64,000 bases of DNA, from the IMG/VR virus record IMGVR_UViG_3300026484_000524, positions 1-64,000 of that record; one strand, given 5' to 3'. The stretch comes from a virus. The notes below the pieces were generated by a model that had not been told where the DNA came from, searched no databases, and worked only from the letters and a program-made list of their open reading frames with translations. The first letter of the stretch is position 1. Each line of letters opens with the position of its first letter. Of the stretch, positions 2,100 through 61,793 are shown in pieces. The translations under genes were made by a program, and so were the position numbers.

Positions 2100-2414
2100 A
2101 TGGGAGTTATGCAAAGAATAACCCGGATACTCTTTGCAATATTTCTACTCTACGCATTTTATCTAGATTTAAAGTACTTTATCTATTTTCACGTGCTTTC
2201 AATAGTTATTGCATTAATTGCTTTAGCAATTTTAGAGTTTGTGGAAAACAAAAGAGTACCATTTTCTCTTGATGTCTTACTTATGCAATTAGATGTTGAA
2301 AACGATGTTTTAACCTACATTCCAGTACTCTTTTTTGTAACAGGACTTTTACCTATGCTTATGCTCGTTTCAGCAATAGGATTAGTTGTATCTGCATTTT
2401 CAAAATCTGAATAA
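2100..2414 (+). CDS. Membrane protein, 104 aa
   Basis: ATG at 2100 lies 13 bases after AGGAGG; an in-frame ATG three codons later is an alternative. The protein has two hydrophobic segments in its first 50 residues, a short acidic/amphipathic middle containing DVLLMQLDVEND, and a long C-terminal hydrophobic stretch (about residues 73-100). Topology and length resemble the preceding gene product, which suggests a tandem duplication. No function is assigned. Confidence 0.7.
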   Translation: MGVMQRITRILFAIFLLYAFYLDLKYFIYFHVLSIVIALIALAILEFVENKRVPFSLDVLLMQLDVENDVLTYIPVLFFVTGLLPMLMLVSAIGLVVSAFSKSE

Positions 2415-2439
2415 AAATAAAGGAGGTATTTGTAGCGCT

Positions 2440-2952
2440 ATGATTGCAACAAAGTTTATAAATGTAAAAGAACTTGAAAGTATTGTAAACGAAATTGAAA
2501 ACGAAAATGTAGCGCTCTTTATTTGTAAACATGAAGATTTTATCCCAAAAATTTCCTATCAAAGCAATGGTATTGATTTAAGAGCAACAACTGATACTGT
2601 ACTAAAACCTGGAGCTTGGGAGCTTGTACCAAATGGAGTTAAAATAGTTTCTAGATTTGACTGGTTTGTAGTTCCACGTTCAGGACTTGCATTAAAACAT
2701 GGAATTACTGTATTGAATGCTCCAGGTTTTGTAGACTGGGACTACAGAAACGAACTTGGTACAATTCTAATAAATCATAGTAAAAATGAGTTTAAGGTAG
2801 AAAAAGGAATGAGAATTTCTCAACTTGTATGCAGACAATATGTTGAGCAAATTTACCTTCTTGTTGATGAAGATATCTTTGAAAAAGTAGGTGTAGAACT
2901 CTTTACAACCAATCGAAACTTAGGAGGTTTCGGAAGTTCAGGTTTAAAGTAG
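2440..2952 (+). CDS. dut: dUTPase (dUTP diphosphatase)
   Basis: Hydrolyses dUTP to dUMP and pyrophosphate, keeping uracil out of phage DNA and supplying dTMP synthesis. All five trimeric dUTPase motifs are visible: GIDLRAT (residues 44-50), PRSGLALKHG (79-88), GFVDWDYRNELGTILIN (96-112, catalytic Asp99), GMRISQLVC (123-131) and the Gly-rich C-terminal arm RNLGGFGSSG (159-168). The start was set at the ATG after AAAGGAGGTATTTGTAGCGCT; the frame is open upstream to 2386, but that would overlap the preceding gene. At 170 residues it has an N-terminal extension of about 20 residues compared with compact family members. Confidence 0.93.
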   Translation: MIATKFINVKELESIVNEIENENVALFICKHEDFIPKISYQSNGIDLRATTDTVLKPGAWELVPNGVKIVSRFDWFVVPRSGLALKHGITVLNAPGFVDWDYRNELGTILINHSKNEFKVEKGMRISQLVCRQYVEQIYLLVDEDIFEKVGVELFTTNRNLGGFGSSGLK

Positions 2953-12445: not shown

Positions 12446-12814
12446 TTACTCCGAGTAAATAATTTCTTCAAATGGATATCCAATTTGCATGCAGAATTCT
12501 TTTAAGTATTCAATATAGTTGATATTGTCAAGATAAATTTCTGCAAGATACCTACCATATTTTCCTTTTCGATCTTTGTAAGTTTTAACGTAAACCTCTT
12601 GATTTTCTAAAAGAGATTGTGCAAATTTTTTAAACTCCTTGCCGATTTCAGAGGCATGTTTTCCGTAAACTTCAGGTGTGTTTATTCCGATAATACGAAC
12701 TCGCTCTTTAATCTTTACGTTAAATCCCAAATCAAATTCAATATCCATAGTATCGCCATCAACTACCTTTACAACCTTTCCTTTGTAAACATACAAGTAT
12801 TCTTCGAAATTCAT
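12446..12814 (-). CDS. Thermonuclease (SNase)-family nuclease
   Basis: A 122-residue protein close to the SNase core. It has KVVDGDT (residues 16-22), the catalytic Arg40 and Glu48 in VRIIGINTPE (39-48), and the second catalytic Arg88 in YGRYLAEI. All three catalytic residues of staphylococcal nuclease (Arg35, Glu43, Arg87 there) have counterparts. There is no signal peptide. It is encoded inside the virion-gene operon, overlapping its upstream neighbour by 4 bases, so it may be packaged with or act alongside the tail. Substrate (DNA or RNA) is not determined. Confidence 0.88.
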   Translation of the reverse strand: MNFEEYLYVYKGKVVKVVDGDTMDIEFDLGFNVKIKERVRIIGINTPEVYGKHASEIGKEFKKFAQSLLENQEVYVKTYKDRKGKYGRYLAEIYLDNINYIEYLKEFCMQIGYPFEEIIYSE

Positions 12815-13968
12815 TTAGCTTCAGCTCCTTTAAAAAGGTTTGTTAGTTTATTTAGCATAGCGAGCTGTTTCAATTCTTGACCGATTTTCTTACCAAGTTC
12901 AATGATTTTATCTAGACGCGTATATGTAACGAAACGTTGCGCTTGAGTACGAATTTGTCCCCAGAATCTTGCAAATCCTGGTATACGATATAAAATATTT
13001 CTTACTGCTGGAATTTTTAGCATTAATGCAATAAGAGTACCCAGTAGTAGTCCAAGTTTTAACTTATGTAGAGCCCAGCCTATCAATTTTTTGAGAATTG
13101 AAAGTAGAATTGAAATTGGGTTAATATCGATAAATTCGCGAAGTGGATATAATGCTTCAGTGAGAGAGCGTTTTGGAAAAAGAGAAACTACTTTACGTTT
13201 TAATGTCAAGTAAACACGTTGAACTGCAGCAATAAATCTACCAATAATTGGAATTCTCTCTTTTATTGCATTTCCAAATGTAATAATAAGTTGATCGTAT
13301 GCCTCAACAATTTCATCAATTATATTTTCATTAAAACTTCGAGTAATACGTAAAAGTGTAGATTGTTGCATTGCGATTTGTTCTTGACGTTTTGCAAGAT
13401 TTACAAACTGTCTCGCAATCAAAAGCATTATACCATTTATAGGAGCATAGAGCATCATAAAAATGAAAAGCACAAATGGATTGTCTACAATTCGCTGAGT
13501 ACAATAGTTGTAGAATGTAATAAGCCCTTTTACAATTAGACGTACAATGAGAGCAATTAACTTATTACTAATTGCCTTCTTTAAAATTCTATCAATAATA
13601 GATCTAACTGTTCCTGATCTTAGAATTGGTGTTTGTAATACTTTATAATTGCCAGTTGTTAATGCATCTTCCAAATGATGAATTCTGTTTGCAATTAAAA
13701 TAGGAATAATGGTGAAGGATAATGATAATACTAGGATAATTAACCCAATTCCCGCAATGTAATCTTTATTTGTAAATGCTGTATCAATTACAATTCCTAG
13801 TCTCGTAATATAGAGAATTACACGTACTGCTGAAACTCGTCCCAGCGTAGTCTTCAAAGGGTTAATCAATAGATCTTTTACAAGTGAGTTAAAGTCTGGT
13901 ATTTTAAACTCTGATAATCTATTTAACGATACAATTGCTTTAGAGTTTTTTCGAATCTTCCTATCCAT
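12811..13968 (-). CDS. Membrane-associated structural protein, 385 aa
   Basis: A basic protein with several hydrophobic segments: about residues 69-95, 165-186 and 305-322. They are separated by Arg/Lys-rich amphipathic helices. The start overlaps the end of the upstream gene by 46 bases; no other Met occurs in the first 150 residues, so this start is likely although the ribosome-binding site is weak. Membrane segments within a tail operon suggest a tape-measure-like or membrane-penetrating virion protein, or a host-membrane channel. This is a hypothesis. Confidence 0.65.
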   Translation of the reverse strand: MDRKIRKNSKAIVSLNRLSEFKIPDFNSLVKDLLINPLKTTLGRVSAVRVILYITRLGIVIDTAFTNKDYIAGIGLIILVLSLSFTIIPILIANRIHHLEDALTTGNYKVLQTPILRSGTVRSIIDRILKKAISNKLIALIVRLIVKGLITFYNYCTQRIVDNPFVLFIFMMLYAPINGIMLLIARQFVNLAKRQEQIAMQQSTLLRITRSFNENIIDEIVEAYDQLIITFGNAIKERIPIIGRFIAAVQRVYLTLKRKVVSLFPKRSLTEALYPLREFIDINPISILLSILKKLIGWALHKLKLGLLLGTLIALMLKIPAVRNILYRIPGFARFWGQIRTQAQRFVTYTRLDKIIELGKKIGQELKQLAMLNKLTNLFKGAEAK

Positions 13969-14945
13969 AGATATACCCGTTTAATATACTCAATGTATGC
14001 TTTATTTAAAAGACGTTTTATAGTTCTAAAATCGGAATACAAATGGAAATAATCTCCCAAAACTAGCTTAATACAACGATATGCCAATCTTGAAGCATTA
14101 AGTTTATAGTTTCCATGTTTAAAGACCAGTAGAACTCTTAAAATTGTAACTCCCAAAATATTTGCAAGTGCTCTCCAAAAGTTTTTATTAGTCTGTAGAT
14201 CAACTAGATATCCTGCATTCGCAAGCAGTTCATATAAAGATGTAATATTTTTAGAAGTGTAGCGTCTTAAGAAAATTGAAACGTCAACGCGTCCTTTAAA
14301 TTTATCAAGTTTGAATTCAGTAATATCTACATCTAGCTTCAACTCGCTATTTCTAATGATCGTATCTGCAGTATATACGAGAGCTTGATTATAACCAAGC
14401 TTAAAGATTCTGTAGAAGTAGTAAAATATAGTTAATGCTAAAATTTGCTCGTAATGCTCTCTATCGCGATATTCATCACCTTGTAAACGTACTACCAATT
14501 TATATATTGCATTTGCAATTAAACCTGCTGCAAAATATAATGAGTCATACACTGTATCTGTCCAGTAGTTTTCCTTTCCGATACACCAGTAAAAAGGAGC
14601 AGTACTCCAAATGGATATTGCAAGATTACTAAATATTGATGAGGTAAATGTGGATTTTCCTTCAATAATTAACTTGAGTTTGTTTAAGTCTGAGGCATCT
14701 GTTGGAAAAACTTCATCAAATACTATAGCTAAATTATGTGCAAGATATGCATTAGGTATTAGAGTTAGTAGTTTTCCAACCTCAGGATCATCAACAAGCA
14801 AATAAATTAGGTTTACATTTTTAATATACTTTCTTTCGAGTAATTTTAATACAGTTTCGTATTCATCTTGATATTTGGAAACTGTTTCTAAATAATTTAC
14901 AAATCCGTTGTAAAATTTCTCGCCTTCAAATGTTAATACTAACAT
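13923..14945 (-). CDS. Hypothetical protein, 340 aa
   Basis: A Leu/Tyr-rich, mainly helical protein with moderately hydrophobic helices (about residues 105-155). Its start overlaps the end of the upstream papain-like gene by 7 bases and its end overlaps the next gene, indicating a tight operon. No motif is recognised. Probably a virion or assembly protein by position. Confidence 0.65.
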   Translation of the reverse strand: MLVLTFEGEKFYNGFVNYLETVSKYQDEYETVLKLLERKYIKNVNLIYLLVDDPEVGKLLTLIPNAYLAHNLAIVFDEVFPTDASDLNKLKLIIEGKSTFTSSIFSNLAISIWSTAPFYWCIGKENYWTDTVYDSLYFAAGLIANAIYKLVVRLQGDEYRDREHYEQILALTIFYYFYRIFKLGYNQALVYTADTIIRNSELKLDVDITEFKLDKFKGRVDVSIFLRRYTSKNITSLYELLANAGYLVDLQTNKNFWRALANILGVTILRVLLVFKHGNYKLNASRLAYRCIKLVLGDYFHLYSDFRTIKRLLNKAYIEYIKRVYLWIGRFEKTLKQLYR

Positions 14946-19933: not shown

Positions 19934-22404
19934 TCAGAATACTCCGAAGGGTATGGAGTTATTATGTTTGCAAAGTAATTTTCATTTTCTGGAATAAAGT
20001 AGTAGTTATCATACATTTGAGGAGAAAATGGTACATTTGGCCATTTAAATGCAAGTTCTCGATTTATTGATGGTGGGACATGATAGGAAATATCGGGACA
20101 TTTATAGGGATACTTTGGAGGATATTCTTTGGATTTCCACTTAGAGTTATATTCTTCAAGTAATTTTACAACGTCTTCAAGTATAAGATTTGCATTAGAG
20201 TGATACTCAATGTTTTCGAAAGTAAAGTGAATTAACGTGGAGTACATTTTGAATTCGCTTACTGAGAAATCATCGATAATATACAATGGTAAGTATTGTA
20301 TGTAACGTCTATAAACCTTTGTATGATTAATCGGATTTTCAAAGTCCTTTGTATACAAAATTCTATCTCTGAAATGATAATATGTATCTGTATACTTGTT
20401 GTAAAAGCCTACAGTATTATGTCCAAATAAAAACTCGTAGATAAAATCAATACGTCTTACAGATTGCCATGCTTTATCAAATCTATTTGCAAATACAATG
20501 TCAAAGGTTTCTCGAAATTTAGTATGGTATTTAGGTTGCAGATATACTTTTTTAGTTACCTCAAGAATTGGAGGGCTAGCTTGTTTAAGTAACCTAATGT
20601 ATCTAGGGCGTATTTTAACATTGATGTTAAAACTTTGCGCAAGCACTTTTAAAAAGCGCATGACGTTTTTGTTAAGATGAGGGCTATAACCAATGGGACG
20701 AATGAATGTAAATAGTTTACGAGTATATACTGAGTAGCAACTATAAAATATATCTCCACCGCAATTACAAGGTATATCATGCCAACGTCCATCACGTGTC
20801 TTATAACCAGGACATGGCAATCTAAAATTAATTTCCTTCCAAGGAACCCAACGATCTCCTACATTTACTTCAAAATAGTCAGTTATATTATAACGATCAG
20901 CTCCTATATCGTAACCAATTAATACCCAGTTTTTAATATTTGTGGTTACTGGAATATGATAACCATATTTATCCTTTGAACCTGTAACTGGTAAATTATA
21001 TGCCCAAACGTAGATATCTGTAAAGATACGCCATTCAAATTTCATTTTGTTAATGAAATTGCTATCGAAAACCACTCCTTTAATGTTAGGAAGCATATTT
21101 AAGACAAACTTTTCAACAAATTCGTCATTTTCTTCCTCAAATTCTAAATCGAGAAAGTTATCCAAACCATCTAAGAAAATTCTATAGGTTATAAACCCTT
21201 GGTTCCAGAATTTCACAAAAAGAATTCTAAGATGACTTGGGTTGTATTTTCCATCGTTAAGAAACTCAAATTCAAATTTCATAAATTCAGCCATTCGCAT
21301 AGGACGAACGTAGCGTTCAATCCTAGGATGCACATGAACTTCAGGCTCTAAACTGCAATCAATTATTTCAAATAATAAGGCGTCATCTTTTAAAAAATGT
21401 GGATAATTGAGTTTATCATCGGTTTCAAAAGAAATTGATAATGTAGTTACGCTTTTGGGATTTTCAATTAGAGAATATGCAAGAGCATTGTTATTTGAAT
21501 CGCGTAAATAAAGATATAGCTGCTTAGTATAATTACTGTCATAATGGTATTCAAATTGAACTGTATATTTCTTTTCAGTTTCAAATGGAATTACTGCACT
21601 AAATGGACTAGTATCTGCCCAGATACGATAAGAAATACCTCTTCTGTCAATTTTAAATTCATTGTTTTTGCTTTGAATATCATGGAAAGTAAAGGTAATT
21701 GAAAATTCATCTAGCTTTTGTCGTTTACTAACATCAATTTTAAAAACTGGAACCTGAACCTGGGTATTGTAATTATAGTCGACAATCTTGGAATTTGATG
21801 TAACGATATAATTTCCATTTGAGTCAGTTTTAGTATTTGAGTCGTAGATAGGAGTCCAGTTACTTGGATCCGAAATATACTTAAAACAGCATTTTCCAAT
21901 ATTATTTGCAAAAGTTGCATCTACATTGAGCGTATCTGGCACTAGAAAGTTATAGGTAAAACTAGATAAGGTTTCGTATTCAATATTTACATATTTATCC
22001 CATTTTTTACTTTCTTCAGTATTGTAGTTGTAAGGTACGTCCCAAAATAACCTTTCACGGTATACTGATTCGTATTTTATGGGATGATAGTAGCATTGAT
22101 TGAATATATAGTCGTCAGTTTTTGGAAAGACTGTGATAATTGCTTCTTCCCAGGACATTTTTGGATTATACCAATCTTCATGGCATGGATTCCAAGGATA
22201 CTCAATACGATATGGGACTGTTGTATAATAACTAGGTTCTACTTTTGCATCATATTCTGGAGTTTCCCAATGTTTCCAAAGACTACCTGCACAATAAATT
22301 GCAACATCAATCAAATCTGGTAGATAATCTGTAAAGTATTCGCCGTAATTATATCCGGTGATAAATTTTTGATATGCGGGAATTTCGCTTTCTTTAAAAT
22401 ACAT
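19930..22404 (-). CDS. Large virion protein, 824 aa
   Basis: The preferred start is ATG 22404 (MYFKESE), preceded by AAAGGG; an in-frame GTG at 22428 abuts the previous stop but has no ribosome-binding site. The protein is rich in Tyr, Trp, Phe and Pro and mainly beta-structured. It contains five DSN tripeptides and, at about residues 540-570, a Cys cluster (LPCPGY, then IPCNCGGD, then SCYS) that could bind a metal or form disulphides. No family is recognised. Size, composition and position point to a tail-fibre or baseplate-periphery protein. Confidence 0.65.
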   Translation of the reverse strand: MYFKESEIPAYQKFITGYNYGEYFTDYLPDLIDVAIYCAGSLWKHWETPEYDAKVEPSYYTTVPYRIEYPWNPCHEDWYNPKMSWEEAIITVFPKTDDYIFNQCYYHPIKYESVYRERLFWDVPYNYNTEESKKWDKYVNIEYETLSSFTYNFLVPDTLNVDATFANNIGKCCFKYISDPSNWTPIYDSNTKTDSNGNYIVTSNSKIVDYNYNTQVQVPVFKIDVSKRQKLDEFSITFTFHDIQSKNNEFKIDRRGISYRIWADTSPFSAVIPFETEKKYTVQFEYHYDSNYTKQLYLYLRDSNNNALAYSLIENPKSVTTLSISFETDDKLNYPHFLKDDALLFEIIDCSLEPEVHVHPRIERYVRPMRMAEFMKFEFEFLNDGKYNPSHLRILFVKFWNQGFITYRIFLDGLDNFLDLEFEEENDEFVEKFVLNMLPNIKGVVFDSNFINKMKFEWRIFTDIYVWAYNLPVTGSKDKYGYHIPVTTNIKNWVLIGYDIGADRYNITDYFEVNVGDRWVPWKEINFRLPCPGYKTRDGRWHDIPCNCGGDIFYSCYSVYTRKLFTFIRPIGYSPHLNKNVMRFLKVLAQSFNINVKIRPRYIRLLKQASPPILEVTKKVYLQPKYHTKFRETFDIVFANRFDKAWQSVRRIDFIYEFLFGHNTVGFYNKYTDTYYHFRDRILYTKDFENPINHTKVYRRYIQYLPLYIIDDFSVSEFKMYSTLIHFTFENIEYHSNANLILEDVVKLLEEYNSKWKSKEYPPKYPYKCPDISYHVPPSINRELAFKWPNVPFSPQMYDNYYFIPENENYFANIITPYPSEYSE

Positions 22405-34187: not shown

Positions 34188-34259
34188 TATGCCGCAAACA
34201 CTCCTTTTTCTTTTTATTTTTAACCAAAAAATTAAAGCAAGAAAAGAGGTACGCAACAG

Positions 34260-34787
34260 ATGCAAAAACGTATCTATACGCTGTATCTTGGAAAATACAA
34301 TGGATTGATTATAGAGTTCATTTTAAATAAAGTAAGTTTGGATTATGAAATACTTGTTAAAAGTAAATTTAGCAATATGGTAAGCAACTTTGTACCATGC
34401 TTTAATGAAGAGGAATATAAAGAACTCTGCAATGCTTGGAACATTGAGACTCAAACTATAAATTCTACACATTTAAGAATTTATGGACAGTATACTGGAT
34501 ACAATAAGGAAAATCTCGTTGCAAATGAAGAAATCATTATGTCAACGATTCAAAGCAACAATATGAAATTCAGGAATATGCTAAGCGTTTATGTATTCTC
34601 TAAAAATAATCAGTTTCTTATAATTGCCGAAAGAGTAATGGTTCCATATAAAAGCAATGTAAAAGTGTCATATTCTGTAGCTCTAGATTGCTACATTCTT
34701 GATGATACTATCGAGTATTTAGAAACAATTGCAGATTATAAAATTAGATTTCCAAAAAATTTACTTGAGAAAGTATACGAAAAATAA
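34260..34787 (+). CDS. Hypothetical protein, 175 aa
   Basis: AGAGGT lies about 10 bases before the ATG. The product is a mixed alpha/beta protein with no recognised motif. It is the first of three rightward genes lying between two large leftward virion blocks. This inverted placement and the neighbouring structural-type proteins suggest a virion-related role. Confidence 0.65.
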   Translation: MQKRIYTLYLGKYNGLIIEFILNKVSLDYEILVKSKFSNMVSNFVPCFNEEEYKELCNAWNIETQTINSTHLRIYGQYTGYNKENLVANEEIIMSTIQSNNMKFRNMLSVYVFSKNNQFLIIAERVMVPYKSNVKVSYSVALDCYILDDTIEYLETIADYKIRFPKNLLEKVYEK

Positions 34788-57874: not shown

Positions 57875-58582
57875 CTAGAAAGTCAGTGTAAACCTCCCGA
57901 GTTCTTCTGCACGCTCAAATGCTATGTTTCGTAAAATACATGAACCACACTTATTACATGGTTCTCCATTTTTATTTGGGTAATAGCATGAATTTGACAT
58001 TGAATAATCTACATTTAGTAGTTCGCCCAATTTTACGAGATATGTTTTCGTTAGGTTTATTAAAGGGGTTAAGATAGTCACAGTATTTGGAAATTGCGTT
58101 GCGTAATTTGCAACATATCCGAATCCAAATATATATGGGTAGGAGTTATCAGGATAAGTCATAGATTCTGATAAATTTGCTCCCAATACTACTGCGTCCA
58201 ATTGATTTTCTTCAGCAATTTTTAGAGCGTAAGTAATAAAAAGCGTATTACGAACAGGAATGTAATGTGAACTAGATTCTGCTTCTTCTTCATCAAAATT
58301 AGAGATAGGTGCCAATTCAGGCATTTCAATGATGTAAAGCGGTAGATTTAATTTTTTTGCAAGCTCTCTTGTTTTTATGAGTTCAATTTCTGCGGCCAAA
58401 TGATTGTATGTAAAGTGAAGCAAGTATGGTTTTATATTCAAGCGTAATAAAAGATAGACGTTGGTGATTGATTCCAATCCTGAGGAGTATAAAACAAGTG
58501 CAGTTTTACAGTTTACATTTCCCTCAAGATAAAATTTTCTTTCAATAGGATCTACTTGTACTGTAAGATTTCGATATAGCAT
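57875..58582 (-). CDS. queC: QueC, 7-cyano-7-deazaguanine (preQ0) synthase
   Basis: QueC converts 7-carboxy-7-deazaguanine to preQ0 using ATP and an ammonia source. Visible features: PP-loop SSGLES (residues 33-38), YIPVRNTLF (107-115), VVLGANLSESMTYPD (131-145), and the zinc site Cys199, Cys209, Cys212, Cys215 in SCY...PCNKCGSC. The start was set at ATG 58582 with AAAAAGGAGGT; the frame is open to 58651, but that part overlaps the upstream gene and lacks a ribosome-binding site. In phages, queC marks 7-deazaguanine modification of DNA. It is paired here with a separate class II glutamine amidotransferase, like the two parts of the fused Gat-QueC protein. Confidence 0.92.
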   Translation of the reverse strand: MLYRNLTVQVDPIERKFYLEGNVNCKTALVLYSSGLESITNVYLLLRLNIKPYLLHFTYNHLAAEIELIKTRELAKKLNLPLYIIEMPELAPISNFDEEEAESSSHYIPVRNTLFITYALKIAEENQLDAVVLGANLSESMTYPDNSYPYIFGFGYVANYATQFPNTVTILTPLINLTKTYLVKLGELLNVDYSMSNSCYYPNKNGEPCNKCGSCILRNIAFERAEELGRFTLTF

Positions 58583-58613
58583 TTTTATATACCTCCTTTT
58601 TCCTTCTTCTTTT

Positions 58614-59255
58614 TTATACAAAGAGTGCAAAATTTGATACGAGCATTCCATCCTTAAACTGATAAGTAAATGCTTTTAACCCTGCTTCCACGACGATAAT
58701 TTTCTTTAGCATTTTGTGGTAGAGAATGTATAGAGACATTCCTTTGGTTTTCTCTTTTAGATGTCTTGCTATTTCAGATACTTCAAGTTTTTCAGACATC
58801 GAGTCGATATAAAATGCAACAAGTTGAGTATCGATTATTTCGTCAGTTACCTTTACGTTATCAAACTCGTATACTATACCATGATGTAAAAAAATATAGT
58901 CGCGCAAATCCAGTGGTTGAATTTCTAGAATTAAAGGTAAATGGGTATCGATTGGTTCAGTTTCCGGAATTGCACGCGCATATAAAGCAATTAGTACTTC
59001 AGGATCGCCTTTATGCTTTCGCTCGTAAATATTGTAAACTGCTTTCTCAAAAACCTCCTTTATATTTTCTGAACTATGCTCTTTATCCCAAAAATGACCA
59101 ACGTATTTTTTTGCAAAATTTGTGCTATAGTTGATAAATAGATGTCCCAAAGCATCATATCCGCGATAAAACCAAATACGTTTTAATTTTTCTGGCGTAG
59201 GAATGATTTGCTTAAATAGTGAAAGCTTTCCGTGATACATGATAGTAGTACACAT
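58614..59255 (-). CDS. Class II glutamine amidotransferase (Gat of Gat-QueC type)
   Basis: The start at 59255 follows AAAGGAGGTATTTTTT and gives MCTT, so Cys2 becomes the N-terminal nucleophile after Met removal, as in all class II amidotransferases. Other landmarks: RGYDALGHLF (31-40), LYARAIPETEP (91-101), FLHHGIVYEFDN (122-133, oxyanion/Gly loop) and DTQL (142-145). Upstream in-frame Met codons would bury the catalytic Cys. It lies 31 bases before queC. In archaeal and some phage systems Gat and QueC are fused and work in archaeosine-type modification, with Gln supplying the amino group. Confidence 0.8.
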   Translation of the reverse strand: MCTTIMYHGKLSLFKQIIPTPEKLKRIWFYRGYDALGHLFINYSTNFAKKYVGHFWDKEHSSENIKEVFEKAVYNIYERKHKGDPEVLIALYARAIPETEPIDTHLPLILEIQPLDLRDYIFLHHGIVYEFDNVKVTDEIIDTQLVAFYIDSMSEKLEVSEIARHLKEKTKGMSLYILYHKMLKKIIVVEAGLKAFTYQFKDGMLVSNFALFV

Positions 59256-59292
59256 AAAAAATACCTCCTTTATGTTTTTTGTCATGAATTAT

Positions 59293-59973
59293 TTATGCAG
59301 ATAATAAAGTTGGTAAGTAAACTGTAAAATCCAATTCATTTGCGATATTAATTGCCGTAGTTACAACTAGATCATACTGTCTAGAGATTCGCTTTAGAGT
59401 TTCTATGTATTGAGAGTTATATGGTTCTTTGTAATACATTTCAGTTGTTAATGTAGTATTGAGTTCAAAAATTGAAATAGTTGGTATGAATGCACGTAAT
59501 TTACTTTGTTGAAATTTGTAGTACTCAATACCAAAAGTATATAAATTATGCATACCTACAACCAATAGAGTTCTTTTTGCGTTTAATGCTCGTACTATAT
59601 TTGGCATATAATATTGAGTACATATGGATAGCAAATCCTTTAGTAAACCGAATTTTTCGCTATAATGAAGTGCAAATACAAATCCCAAACTCAATGTACA
59701 TGAACTACATAAGCTAACAATGGGAATATGATCAATAATAATTTTGTTTAGATTTGCTAGACGGGCTATAGTCAAATTTGGATTAAGATACCAAGTATTC
59801 ATTCCGCAACATGGTAAATCTGCAATAATAATTTTGAAAAACCGAGAAAGCATCTTAAGACATGCATCAAGATAGTCTTTGTTGTAAGATCCGCAGCATC
59901 CAGTATACACATATAGCTTTTTTTGTACAGTTGGTTTATTTACACGACTGTATTTTCTACAGGGACAGCTCAT
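59293..59973 (-). CDS. CCG-domain (HdrB-like) cysteine-rich protein
   Basis: Residues 20-95 carry a CCG (DUF224) domain: YTGCCGS (Cys26), LPCCGM (Cys55-Cys56) and LCSSC (Cys89, Cys92). The spacing C-x28-CC-x32-CxxC is close to the family pattern (about x31-39 and x35-36). Such domains bind non-cubane [4Fe-4S] clusters or zinc in HdrB, succinate:quinone reductase subunit E and LutA. A second domain (about 115-226) has lost most cysteines. The N-terminus MSCPC adds two more. GGTGGT precedes the ATG. It sits directly upstream of gat and queC, so a redox step in base modification is possible. This is inference; the domain call is from pattern only. Confidence 0.65.
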   Translation of the reverse strand: MSCPCRKYSRVNKPTVQKKLYVYTGCCGSYNKDYLDACLKMLSRFFKIIIADLPCCGMNTWYLNPNLTIARLANLNKIIIDHIPIVSLCSSCTLSLGFVFALHYSEKFGLLKDLLSICTQYYMPNIVRALNAKRTLLVVGMHNLYTFGIEYYKFQQSKLRAFIPTISIFELNTTLTTEMYYKEPYNSQYIETLKRISRQYDLVVTTAINIANELDFTVYLPTLLSA

Positions 59974-59993
59974 TTTTACATACCACCTTCTCT

Positions 59994-60731
59994 TTAAAGT
60001 AAATATACAAAGTTGTAAATTTCATGACGGTAAAATTTTGGCCCGATTTCAACAAGTCGTTCAAATGTACAAGCTTCACTTTCATATAAATTAACCCACG
60101 CAATATGATAGACGTACTTCTTTATCCATTCCCAGTCGAGTTTAGATTTTGGTTGAATTAAATTTGGAAAAGGGAAATAGTTGATTGAATGTTTAGCTAA
60201 AACTTTATCAACATCTTGTAATGTAGCAAATCCTTGATAATATCTGTAGAGCACATCGTATACTTCTTGAATTCCGAATGCTAACGTTGGAACTCTCACA
60301 TTATTTTTTGCTTGAGCATAAAGGAAACCTTTTACATATTCCTCTGGTATTAAATCCTCTGCAGTTTTTCGTGGGATAGTTATTTTGTTATACTTGTAAT
60401 GGAAAATAATATAATCTGGGGTAAAATTACACCATGATTGAACTGGAATATAATGAATATTTCCTTCGGAATCTTCTGTTTGAATAAACACTTGCTTTCT
60501 AAAAAACTCGAAGAAATAAATTTTTAGCCGTTTCTCACTCCAGTTTTCAAAGTAATACTGCATAATTTCATTTACGTAATCGGTAAATTGATAGGTTCTG
60601 AATTCAGAGTAGCGCAGTAAACTAATAAACCTGTCGCGATACGAAGGAAACCAATATTCTGCTACATCTTGAGCCCATTTTTCAATCACATCATCTAAAC
60701 TAATGTTGTCATAAGTACGAATTGCACTCAT
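59994..60731 (-). CDS. Hypothetical protein, 245 aa
   Basis: A Tyr/Phe-rich soluble protein, helical at the N-terminus (about residues 8-75) and mixed afterwards. There is no strong Shine-Dalgarno. It begins the four-gene stretch that runs into the CCG-domain, Gat and QueC genes and could belong to the same pathway, but contains no recognised motif. Confidence 0.65.
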   Translation of the reverse strand: MSAIRTYDNISLDDVIEKWAQDVAEYWFPSYRDRFISLLRYSEFRTYQFTDYVNEIMQYYFENWSEKRLKIYFFEFFRKQVFIQTEDSEGNIHYIPVQSWCNFTPDYIIFHYKYNKITIPRKTAEDLIPEEYVKGFLYAQAKNNVRVPTLAFGIQEVYDVLYRYYQGFATLQDVDKVLAKHSINYFPFPNLIQPKSKLDWEWIKKYVYHIAWVNLYESEACTFERLVEIGPKFYRHEIYNFVYLL

Positions 60732-60760: not shown

Positions 60761-61060
60761 TTAATCTAGAGTATTATTTGCATTTGGATTTTTCAAAGCT
60801 GCACGTTCTCCAAACCAAAAGCCAATTAATGTGGATACGGTTCCTGAAATTGAAAGTAGAAATTCTTTATACGAAAGCTGATGAGTATATAATCCTATGA
60901 TCAATGCAATCATAAAGAGTCCAATTATTAAAATCGTAAGAATTGGACGTACAGATGCTCTGATAATTTCCAGTTGGGTTTGCTTGAATAAGTATTCCTT
61001 TAAACCATCTTTACCTAAATACTTTTCTAAAAGTTGAAGATCGCGTTCTTTAAGCTCCAT
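60761..61060 (-). CDS. Small membrane protein, holin-like, 99 aa
   Basis: Two predicted transmembrane helices (about residues 37-57 and 67-84) follow a charged N-terminal helix. The segment LLSISGTVSTLIGFWFGERA is typical of small phage and bacterial membrane proteins annotated as putative holins. The start overlaps the end of the dNMP kinase gene by 11 bases. A holin role is possible but no endolysin is adjacent. Confidence 0.6.
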   Translation of the reverse strand: MELKERDLQLLEKYLGKDGLKEYLFKQTQLEIIRASVRPILTILIIGLFMIALIIGLYTHQLSYKEFLLSISGTVSTLIGFWFGERAALKNPNANNTLD

Positions 61061-61793
61061 CTGCAGTTTCTACATTTCGTACTTTTATATTAACCTCCTC
61101 AAGCAGTCTATCTAGATGCTCAAAAAATTTCTCATCATAGGTATTATGAATAATACTATGACATTTCGGAATTAATTTATCAACTTCAGTTTCAGATGGA
61201 TGCTCGTCGTTATCTGTTTTTCCAATAATTCCTACAATGTATCTAAAAACATTGTAGATTTTATCGTTAACTACGTAAACATCTGAAAATTCTAAAATAG
61301 CTTGGAATTCATTTGGAAATCGCATATCGTCAATAGTTATCTTAGTAATTCCCTGTTTTATAAGAGTTTGAATCATACCAATTGCTTTAGCTACCCAATA
61401 ATCTGAACGCCATGCTCTAAATACATCTGTACCGATAAATTGCAAAAGTTTTCTAGCAATGCGTTTTCTATCTTCAATATTATCGGAGTGGTAATAATGA
61501 TAAATACTTGCAGCAATAATTGAAGCTACACTATGAGAAATTGGTAAATTTGGTTCAAAATTTCTTAAACCCGTAATTACATAATCAATTAGTTTTTGCA
61601 TTGAGAAATCTTTAAGAGCAGGATTTAAAAGTTCACCTTCTTTATTAACTCCAAGACTTGCAACTAAATCTTTTAAAGGTTTGGCAAAAGATACTTTATG
61701 AAAACCGTATTTTTCCACTAGATATTGTGCTGCAGTTGTTTTTCCGGATCCTTTTCTTCCTACAAATGCAATTACATAAACAATATCGTTCAT
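61050..61793 (-). CDS. Deoxynucleoside monophosphate kinase
   Basis: Phosphorylates dNMPs to dNDPs for phage DNA synthesis. P-loop GRKGSGKTT (residues 12-20), FAKPLKD (36-42), KLLQFIGTDVFRAW (115-128), DDMRFPNE (155-162) and HPSE (198-201) together match the T4 gp1-type dNMP kinases. GGAGGT precedes the ATG. Together with dut at 2440 it supports a phage-controlled nucleotide pool. If the phage uses a modified base, this kinase could need to accept the modified dNMP, but modification after synthesis is equally likely. Confidence 0.85.
   Translation of the reverse strand: MNDIVYVIAFVGRKGSGKTTAAQYLVEKYGFHKVSFAKPLKDLVASLGVNKEGELLNPALKDFSMQKLIDYVITGLRNFEPNLPISHSVASIIAASIYHYYHSDNIEDRKRIARKLLQFIGTDVFRAWRSDYWVAKAIGMIQTLIKQGITKITIDDMRFPNEFQAILEFSDVYVVNDKIYNVFRYIVGIIGKTDNDEHPSETEVDKLIPKCHSIIHNTYDEKFFEHLDRLLEEVNIKVRNVETADGA

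Follow-up and report, generated by a model that had tools for sequence, protein, structure and literature searches.

The 64,000-nucleotide stretch analysed here (positions 1 to 64,000 of IMG/VR virus record IMGVR_UViG_3300026484_000524, hereafter the window) carries three leftward genes encoding a CCG-type cysteine protein, a class II glutamine amidotransferase (Gat) and QueC. Together with genes found on overlapping records they likely represent a full gene set by which the virus itself would modify its DNA with 7-deazaguanine (dPreQ0/dG+), the archaeosine synthase being unfused. FolE, QueD and QueE would convert GTP to 7-carboxy-7-deazaguanine, from which QueC would make preQ0, and a divergent TGT-fold DpdA encoded beside QueE would swap guanine in DNA for preQ0. 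The separate amidotransferase would supply glutamine-derived ammonia to QueC, which, like the fused Gat-QueC, would turn the preQ0 nitrile into the formamidine of archaeosine (dG+), and dG+ would shield the virus DNA from nucleases. That the cassette forms the terminal part of such a DNA-protecting dG+ pathway, with a separate Gat feeding QueC, is in our judgement fairly probable.

Organization of the cassette

The three open reading frames (ORFs) are arranged head to tail in the order CCG, Gat, QueC, where the sequence-only reading had placed them, with gaps of 37 nt (CCG/Gat) and 31 nt (Gat/QueC). Start codons were chosen by the ribosome-binding sites read in the DNA (Table 1). Because Gat and QueC each have a Shine-Dalgarno (SD)-like site of their own, they look like two translation products and not like a fused gene that a sequencing error has interrupted. 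Full-length, gap-free alignments of all three genes were obtained with two further records, G001 and G002. The codon differences between the records, each counted once, were synonymous in 9 of 10 cases (CCG 3/3, Gat 3/3 and QueC 3/4 among the three records); this bias is not special to the cassette, since 48 ORFs compared between G001 and the window's own record, G000, showed 42 synonymous and 15 non-synonymous codon differences.

QueC and the amidotransferase

QueC was identified, as the sequence-only reading had it, by Pfam PF06508 (E 1.8e-38) and phrog_1550 (E 6.2e-37). The accompanying claim that both its PP-loop and its zinc cysteines are intact held for the cysteines (C-x9-CxxCxxC), whereas the loop has drifted to SSGLES. 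The canonical QueC motifs, in the account given in PMC13329287, are SGGxDS, VPxRN, YPDC and C-x8-CxxCxxC; the window protein, which has IPVRN and YPDN besides the two motifs just mentioned, fails this set. When it was aligned with six fused Gat-QueC proteins (9g, Megan, PSTCR7, R7M, PH669, Vid5) and with the canonical QueC proteins of phages HVTV-1 and CAjan, LGxNLxExxxYPDN was common to the window QueC and the six fused proteins, whereas HVTV-1 and CAjan have YPDC. Ten canonical-type QueC sequences had YPDC (seven), YPDG (one) or YWDC (one), the pattern being unmatched in the tenth. Of two profiles built from two sequences each, the fused-class one fitted the window QueC better (E 1.3e-29) than the one made from canonical phage proteins (E 4.1e-21). 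The protein is assigned to the Gat-QueC class because of these motifs and profile scores, not because of the tree described below.

The Gat ORF opens with ATG and TGT (Met-Cys2), 7 nt downstream of AAAGGAGGT, and its motifs MC, RGYDALG, ARAIPETE, HHG and IDS are co-linear with MC, RGRDGxG, ARAEPTTE, HNG and IDS in the Gat half of the fused proteins. In an alignment of 48 Gat rows that include the window protein, the columns without variation include Cys2 and the motif residues Arg, His, Gly and Asp. Profile-profile comparison with the Gat halves gave a score of 28.2; the highest score was 19.3 among 100 shuffles and 24.8 among 60 other ORFs of the virus. An AlphaFold2 model (pLDDT 84.2, pTM 0.83) resembled the glutaminase domains of GlmS, PurF and EgtC, and its first 33 matches in the PDB were class II amidotransferases, the best being 1xff (GlmS, E 4.7e-7); the model was built from an alignment with 47 other Gat domains and is hence not wholly independent evidence. 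Of the features proposed from the sequence, the N-terminal Cys2 is present and the class II fold is that of the model; HHG stands in place of HNG. Neither tblastn against phages (no match at E <= 1) nor a comparison with PDB sequences (nothing meaningful) detected relatives of Gat.

Gat and QueC are fused in related loci

Viral relatives were collected by scanning with an alignment of the window QueC and the C-terminal parts of the six Gat-QueC proteins. This yielded 124 confirmed loci. The analysis used the 80 that scored best, leaving aside 44 weaker ones; two of the 80 belong to this virus, leaving 78. A Gat motif was present upstream in the same ORF as QueC in 76 of the 76 evaluable loci, in a sample that leans towards fused loci because the scan patterns derive from fused proteins. 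The other two loci (L108 and L122) run off the end of their contigs and are hence not evaluable; among the 76, the ORF of L116 begins barely before the Gat motif and a few others are partial at a contig end. Of nine cellular loci, two of them from one bin and some in phage-like surroundings, all nine had a single ORF for Gat and QueC. PMC5485725 likewise treats GAT-QueC as a fusion protein. Against these fused relatives the separate Gat and QueC ORFs of the window, each with its own SD, are unusual. In the window cassette a CCG gene also adjoins Gat and QueC; no counterpart was found near the 78 related loci. Literature searches covering few subscription journals returned the split in no title or abstract opening, either for archaeosine synthase with a separate QueC or, among the matches listed, for CCG proteins with phage or 7-deazaguanine, and the sample numbers of the records turned up in none of the papers searched.

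The other genes of the proposed pathway lie on overlapping records

Small phage profiles detected no FolE, QueD, QueE or DpdA in the window at E <= 0.01, in line with the earlier statement that these genes are not seen in the 64 kb; the best sub-threshold match was to the QueE profile at 34236-34784 (E 0.05). The sequence-only reading had advised searching the rest of the genome, and there, on successively overlapping records, FolE, QueD, QueE and a DpdA/TGT-fold protein were all found (Table 1), so that the preQ0 synthesis set FolE, QueD, QueE and QueC is present in what appears, by way of the record overlaps, to be one virus. SD-like sites precede all of the four added genes, and the pathway genes occupy four loci about 13.5, 18 and 66 kb apart by record coordinates.

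The records involved are G000 (79,908 b), G001 (106,051 b; sample 3300026382), G002 (80,039 b; sample 3300026488), G003 (77,831 b; sample 3300026484) and G004 (37,703 b; sample 3300026488). Identity in the overlaps was 99.79-99.93% for G000/G001, 99.4-99.9% for G002/G000, 99.98% and 99.4% for G003/G001, 97.7% over 352 b for G003/G000 and 99.46% over 10,919 b for G004/G003. The chained records, which appear to come from the same virus, span about 199 kb by their coordinates and have a G+C fraction of 0.30-0.33 throughout. In G005, a possible relative by terminase match of which four ORFs match the virus at 1e-5, no Que profile matched at E <= 0.1 among 110 ORFs.

Table 1. Positions of the cassette, its translation signals and the other pathway genes
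Feature	Position	Strand	Details
QueC	window 57875-58582	-	235 amino acids from ATG at 58582; Pfam QueC, alignment, upstream SD
Gat, stand-alone class II (Ntn) glutamine amidotransferase	window 58614-59255	-	213 amino acids, ATG at 59255
CCG-type cysteine protein	window 59293-59973	-	226 amino acids, ATG at 59973
SD-like AAAGGAGGT preceding QueC	window 58591-58599	-	read from sequence
SD-like AAAGGAGGT preceding Gat	window 59263-59271	-	puts Cys at residue 2; read from sequence
SD-like AAGGTGGT preceding CCG gene	window 59982-59989	-	read from sequence
Deoxynucleoside monophosphate (dNMP) kinase	window 61050-61793	-	third gene upstream of CCG gene, context only; phrog_139 E 2.1e-31, Pfam DNMK E 6e-11
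FolE	G000 73503-74114		Pfam E 2.2e-53; phrog_2197 E 1.3e-57
QueD	G001 20381-21073		PTPS E 8.2e-20; phrog_2389 E 9.7e-24
QueE	G004 12707-13429		phrog_2076 E 1.6e-28
DpdA-like protein	G004 13447-14832		461 amino acids; directly after QueE gene

A radical S-adenosylmethionine (SAM) gene at L007:14713-15411 was considered as QueE (QueE profile E 1.3e-12; best PHROG, QueE-like, E 1.1e-11) and rejected. It was read as NrdG, the best NCBIfam match being NrdG2 (E 3.6e-22, below cut-off), and it sits between NrdD pieces: in record G001 (L007:13055-15951, plus strand) NrdD is divided over two ORFs, body and C-terminal part, with this NrdG2-like gene between them.

A distant DpdA-like protein

The protein encoded next to QueE matched phrog_887 with an E-value of 3.6e-7 (2.5e-100 for 9g DpdA and 2.3e-98 for CAjan DpdA). 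This profile matched 4 of the 7 records searched (not nt-1, phiST and HVTV-1) and none of 14 control genomes. Against a 59-row DpdA profile the protein ranked first, with a score of 35.5 vs 24.2, among 88 virus ORFs of 250-650 amino acids, some of them from overlapping pieces. Its segments FIDSGGYQ, MDI, YHF, AIGG and FHFHILG align on DpdA motifs, and TADSS, which follows them, falls where DpdA has its SxDS motif. When 1000 candidates were re-aligned structurally to the model of the protein, all of the best 50 rows were TGTs, with Z 14.9-16.7 over 283-310 residues. Membership of the DpdA/TGT family is indicated by phrog_887, the profile score and the TGT fold; the Pfam TGT model is silent, hence the protein is a distant member.

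Points against the pathway and alternative explanations

Several observations weigh against a complete pathway ending in dG+. That there is one virus is inferred by joining five records, and QueC, QueD and QueE stay under the NCBI equivalog cut-offs, whereas FolE passes one of four. Sequence-only evidence for Gat is weak (Pfam GATase_6 E 0.0073, below cut-off; hhalign probability 15%). In an unrooted tree of 58 sequences (the window QueC, 10 canonical and 47 fused rows), the window QueC, which is of odd composition, stands unassigned on a long branch between canonical and fused rows, and approximately unbiased (AU) tests of alternative placements rejected none at 0.05 (p-AU 0.118 with four archaeal rows, 0.054 with the L103 group, 0.189 with IBB35). 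The P-loops of the 78 related viral loci read SGGLDS in 42, SGGMDS in 13, SAGLDS in seven and SSGLDS in two, 14 being unreadable; the Gly to Ser exchange is tolerated in other relatives, and all 64 loops read have Asp at the fifth place, where the window has Glu. The oxyanion motif of Gat is HHG, as against HNG in 74 and FNG in two of the 76 evaluable relatives. Judged by these motifs, SSGLES in QueC or HHG in Gat could lower activity. The Marsarchaeota Gat-QueC of locus L172 (near 5001) has VSHGF where others have HNG, together with SSGLDS and FSDN.

HHG in Gat and SSGLES in QueC would fit a pathway that is real and ends at preQ0 or ADG, either because Gat no longer hydrolyses glutamine or because QueC uses free ammonia, so that the DNA would contain dPreQ0 or dADG. 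The report on 9g and related phages describes dPreQ0 in CAjan and Rosebush, which are without amidotransferase (PMC6884629). Such an early stop is nevertheless unlikely, if a realistic prospect: the window Gat keeps Cys2 and the motif Arg, His, Gly and Asp, which are among the residues invariant in the 48 Gat rows, its differences in G002 are synonymous (3/3), the L172 relative likewise lacks the Asn, and SSGLDS does occur in 2 of the 64 viral loops read.

Further points against the dG+ pathway concern the DpdA-like protein. Its model is of low confidence (pLDDT 61, core mostly 70-89) and was built on an alignment of known DpdA proteins, which may pull the fold that way. The hhalign probability against the DpdA profile was 36%, and Foldseek by itself yielded nothing at E <= 0.001, the best 50 rows containing other TIM-barrel proteins and no TGT. 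With a DpdA profile of four sequences, none of the virus pieces, not even G004, gave a hit at E <= 0.1, and Pfam TGT matched neither the protein in G004 nor anything in G001, G002 or G003. Searches with the protein returned neither a Pfam nor an NCBIfam family at E <= 0.1 and nothing meaningful among PDB sequences.

DSGGFQ is a motif of tRNA enzymes, and the TGT-fold protein, whose DSGGYQ is nearer to that motif than to DSGAFS, the form found in phage DpdA, also matches tRNA enzymes best in structure. The genes might accordingly act on host tRNA and raise queuosine or archaeosine there, not in DNA. We regard this as improbable, as the sole family that three libraries returned at E <= 0.1 was phrog_887, the family of 9g and CAjan DpdA, and the best 50 structural rows contain no DpdA structure, so the structural result cannot separate DNA from tRNA.

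Slightly less probable still is the entry of the deazaguanine into DNA as a nucleotide, whereby a viral HGPRT-like enzyme and the dNMP kinase would produce a modified dGTP for the viral polymerase. Some phages, according to PMC6884629, have the pathway without DpdA, including Campylobacter phages for which modified dGTP was proposed. The virus does encode an HGPRT-like phosphoribosyltransferase (TIGR01203, E 1.9e-28, below cut-off) and parts of a class III ribonucleotide reductase, and its dNMP kinase gene is close to the cassette; in phage phiST a phosphoribosyltransferase is annotated alongside FolE, QueD and QueE. Nevertheless, the DpdA/TGT-fold protein adjoins QueE, and HGPRT and dNMP kinase have ordinary roles. 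The HGPRT-like gene (L006:4171-5374, minus strand; G000 67170-68373) overlaps an endonuclease III-like gene, and its product matches the phiST phosphoribosyltransferase (L018:28218-28646) weakly (E 0.012).

QueC-family proteins can deazaguanylate proteins according to PMC13329287, yet it is very improbable that the window QueC modifies a protein partner like QatC and Cap9 of defence systems, given its Gat-QueC motif, zinc site and accompanying Gat and the FolE, QueD and QueE encoded by the same virus.

The CCG protein

CCG-domain proteins include HdrB and LutA. The sequence-only reading had assigned the third gene of the cassette to this Fe-S type, and its cysteine motif is of that kind, while the family models matched below their cut-offs: Pfam PF02754 gave E 0.29 (below cut-off) and NCBIfam GlpC a partial match at E 4.5e-6, far under its cut-off. 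The protein has cysteines at Cys26/27, Cys55-Cys56-Gly and Cys89-x2-Cys92, so that the C-xn-CCG-xm-CxxC motif of CCG/HdrB-type Fe-S proteins is present in one copy and missing from the C-terminal half. The pattern shared with HdrB, LutA and GlpC, C-x28-CCG-x31-CxxC, is unlikely to have arisen by chance, because with loose spacing it was met in 16 of 200,000 shuffles; among 1604 six-frame segments from the pieces of the virus, one had it.

Relatives were not found among ORFs within up to 6 kb on either side of the 78 loci (the best E-value being 0.89), among 25 stretches of genome contigs that matched a search pattern (0 relatives), by tblastn against phages (no match at E <= 1) or among PDB sequences (nothing meaningful). 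PF02754 matched in 0 of 32 records, the virus's own G001 and G002 included, and is too insensitive to prove the absence of CCG proteins elsewhere.

The CCG protein is tied to the deazaguanine pathway by gene position. Our guess is that it is a redox helper, for example an electron donor to a radical SAM enzyme (QueE or NrdG), or that it serves thiol-redox chemistry. The class III ribonucleotide reductase parts, recognized by Pfam, suggest anaerobic growth and another possible client of the CCG protein. It is a doubtful but wider-reaching idea that the cassette represents an unfused archaeosine synthase, in a pre-fusion state or secondarily split with a re-tuned active site, in which CCG would be a new catalytic or electron-donating subunit and the product possibly an undescribed 7-deazaguanine.

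A 245 amino acid ORF with no meaningful family match (window 59994-60731, minus strand) lies 20 nt upstream of the CCG gene; its three differences in G002 are all synonymous.

Relation to known systems

The proposal of a new variant of 7-deazaguanine DNA modification gains from the genome-level gene set and from the split; the PP-loop that it had called intact has drifted. The closest parallel is Enterobacteria phage 9g (Nonagvirus), which likewise has FolE, QueD, QueE, Gat, a YPDN-class QueC and a DpdA-family protein. In 9g, as reported in PMC6884629, Gat-QueC and DpdA place dG+ in E. coli DNA and thereby confer EcoRI resistance. Unlike 9g, which has one gene cluster with a fused Gat-QueC, the window virus has its genes in four places, separate Gat and QueC, a far-diverged DpdA-like protein and a CCG gene joined to the cassette. 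Archaeal Gat-QueC (archaeosine synthase) shares the two domains and the QueC motif class and was fused in the nine cellular loci; the preQ0/G+ pathway is also carried by Druskaviridae of archaea, as described in PMC8651126. Sphingomonas phage vB_StuS_MMDA13 resembles the window virus in having QueC apart from the amidation function and differs in that its QueC, described as being without a GAT domain, is accompanied by a QueF-like enzyme (PMC7472734). Phage CAjan, with a preQ0 pathway, shares FolE, QueD, QueE, a stand-alone QueC and DpdA; its QueC has YPDC, and the account in PMC6884629 gives no amidotransferase for its group.

Whether G+ is formed before or after insertion into DNA is presented as an open question for 9g in PMC6884629. 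With Gat and QueC as separate proteins, which we infer to form a complex, the use of glutamine by Gat-QueC becomes directly testable with two purified proteins, and so does the timing of the preQ0 to G+ step relative to insertion. The virus, a large phage that has multisubunit RNA polymerase genes of its own, is also a new setting for the gene set, and contributes a distant DpdA and a possible Fe-S partner. It indicates that such pathways can be dispersed along a genome and be overlooked on short contigs.

Other genes of the virus

The RNA polymerase genes, recognized by Pfam, lie in G003 (L041:15008-18058 and L042:2728-8499, minus strand) and comprise two beta-prime-like ORFs (1016 and 906 amino acids) and two beta-like ORFs (601 and 385 amino acids). 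The same record encodes an 858 amino acid protein (L043:2548-5124, minus strand) with a family B DNA polymerase and an N-terminal uracil-DNA glycosylase domain (Pfam). A type IB topoisomerase-like ORF is located at L007:17332-18819 (minus strand; Pfam Topoisom_I E 5.5e-22). At L007:10274-12569 (plus strand) a serine-resolvase ORF adjoins a TnpB-like ORF with a Cas12f1-like TNB domain, a pair which we take to be an IS607-like arrangement. The broad nucleotide metabolism set comprises, besides the dNMP kinase of Table 1, a dUTPase (window 2386-2952, plus strand) and a dCMP deaminase-like protein (L013:15453-16145, minus strand).

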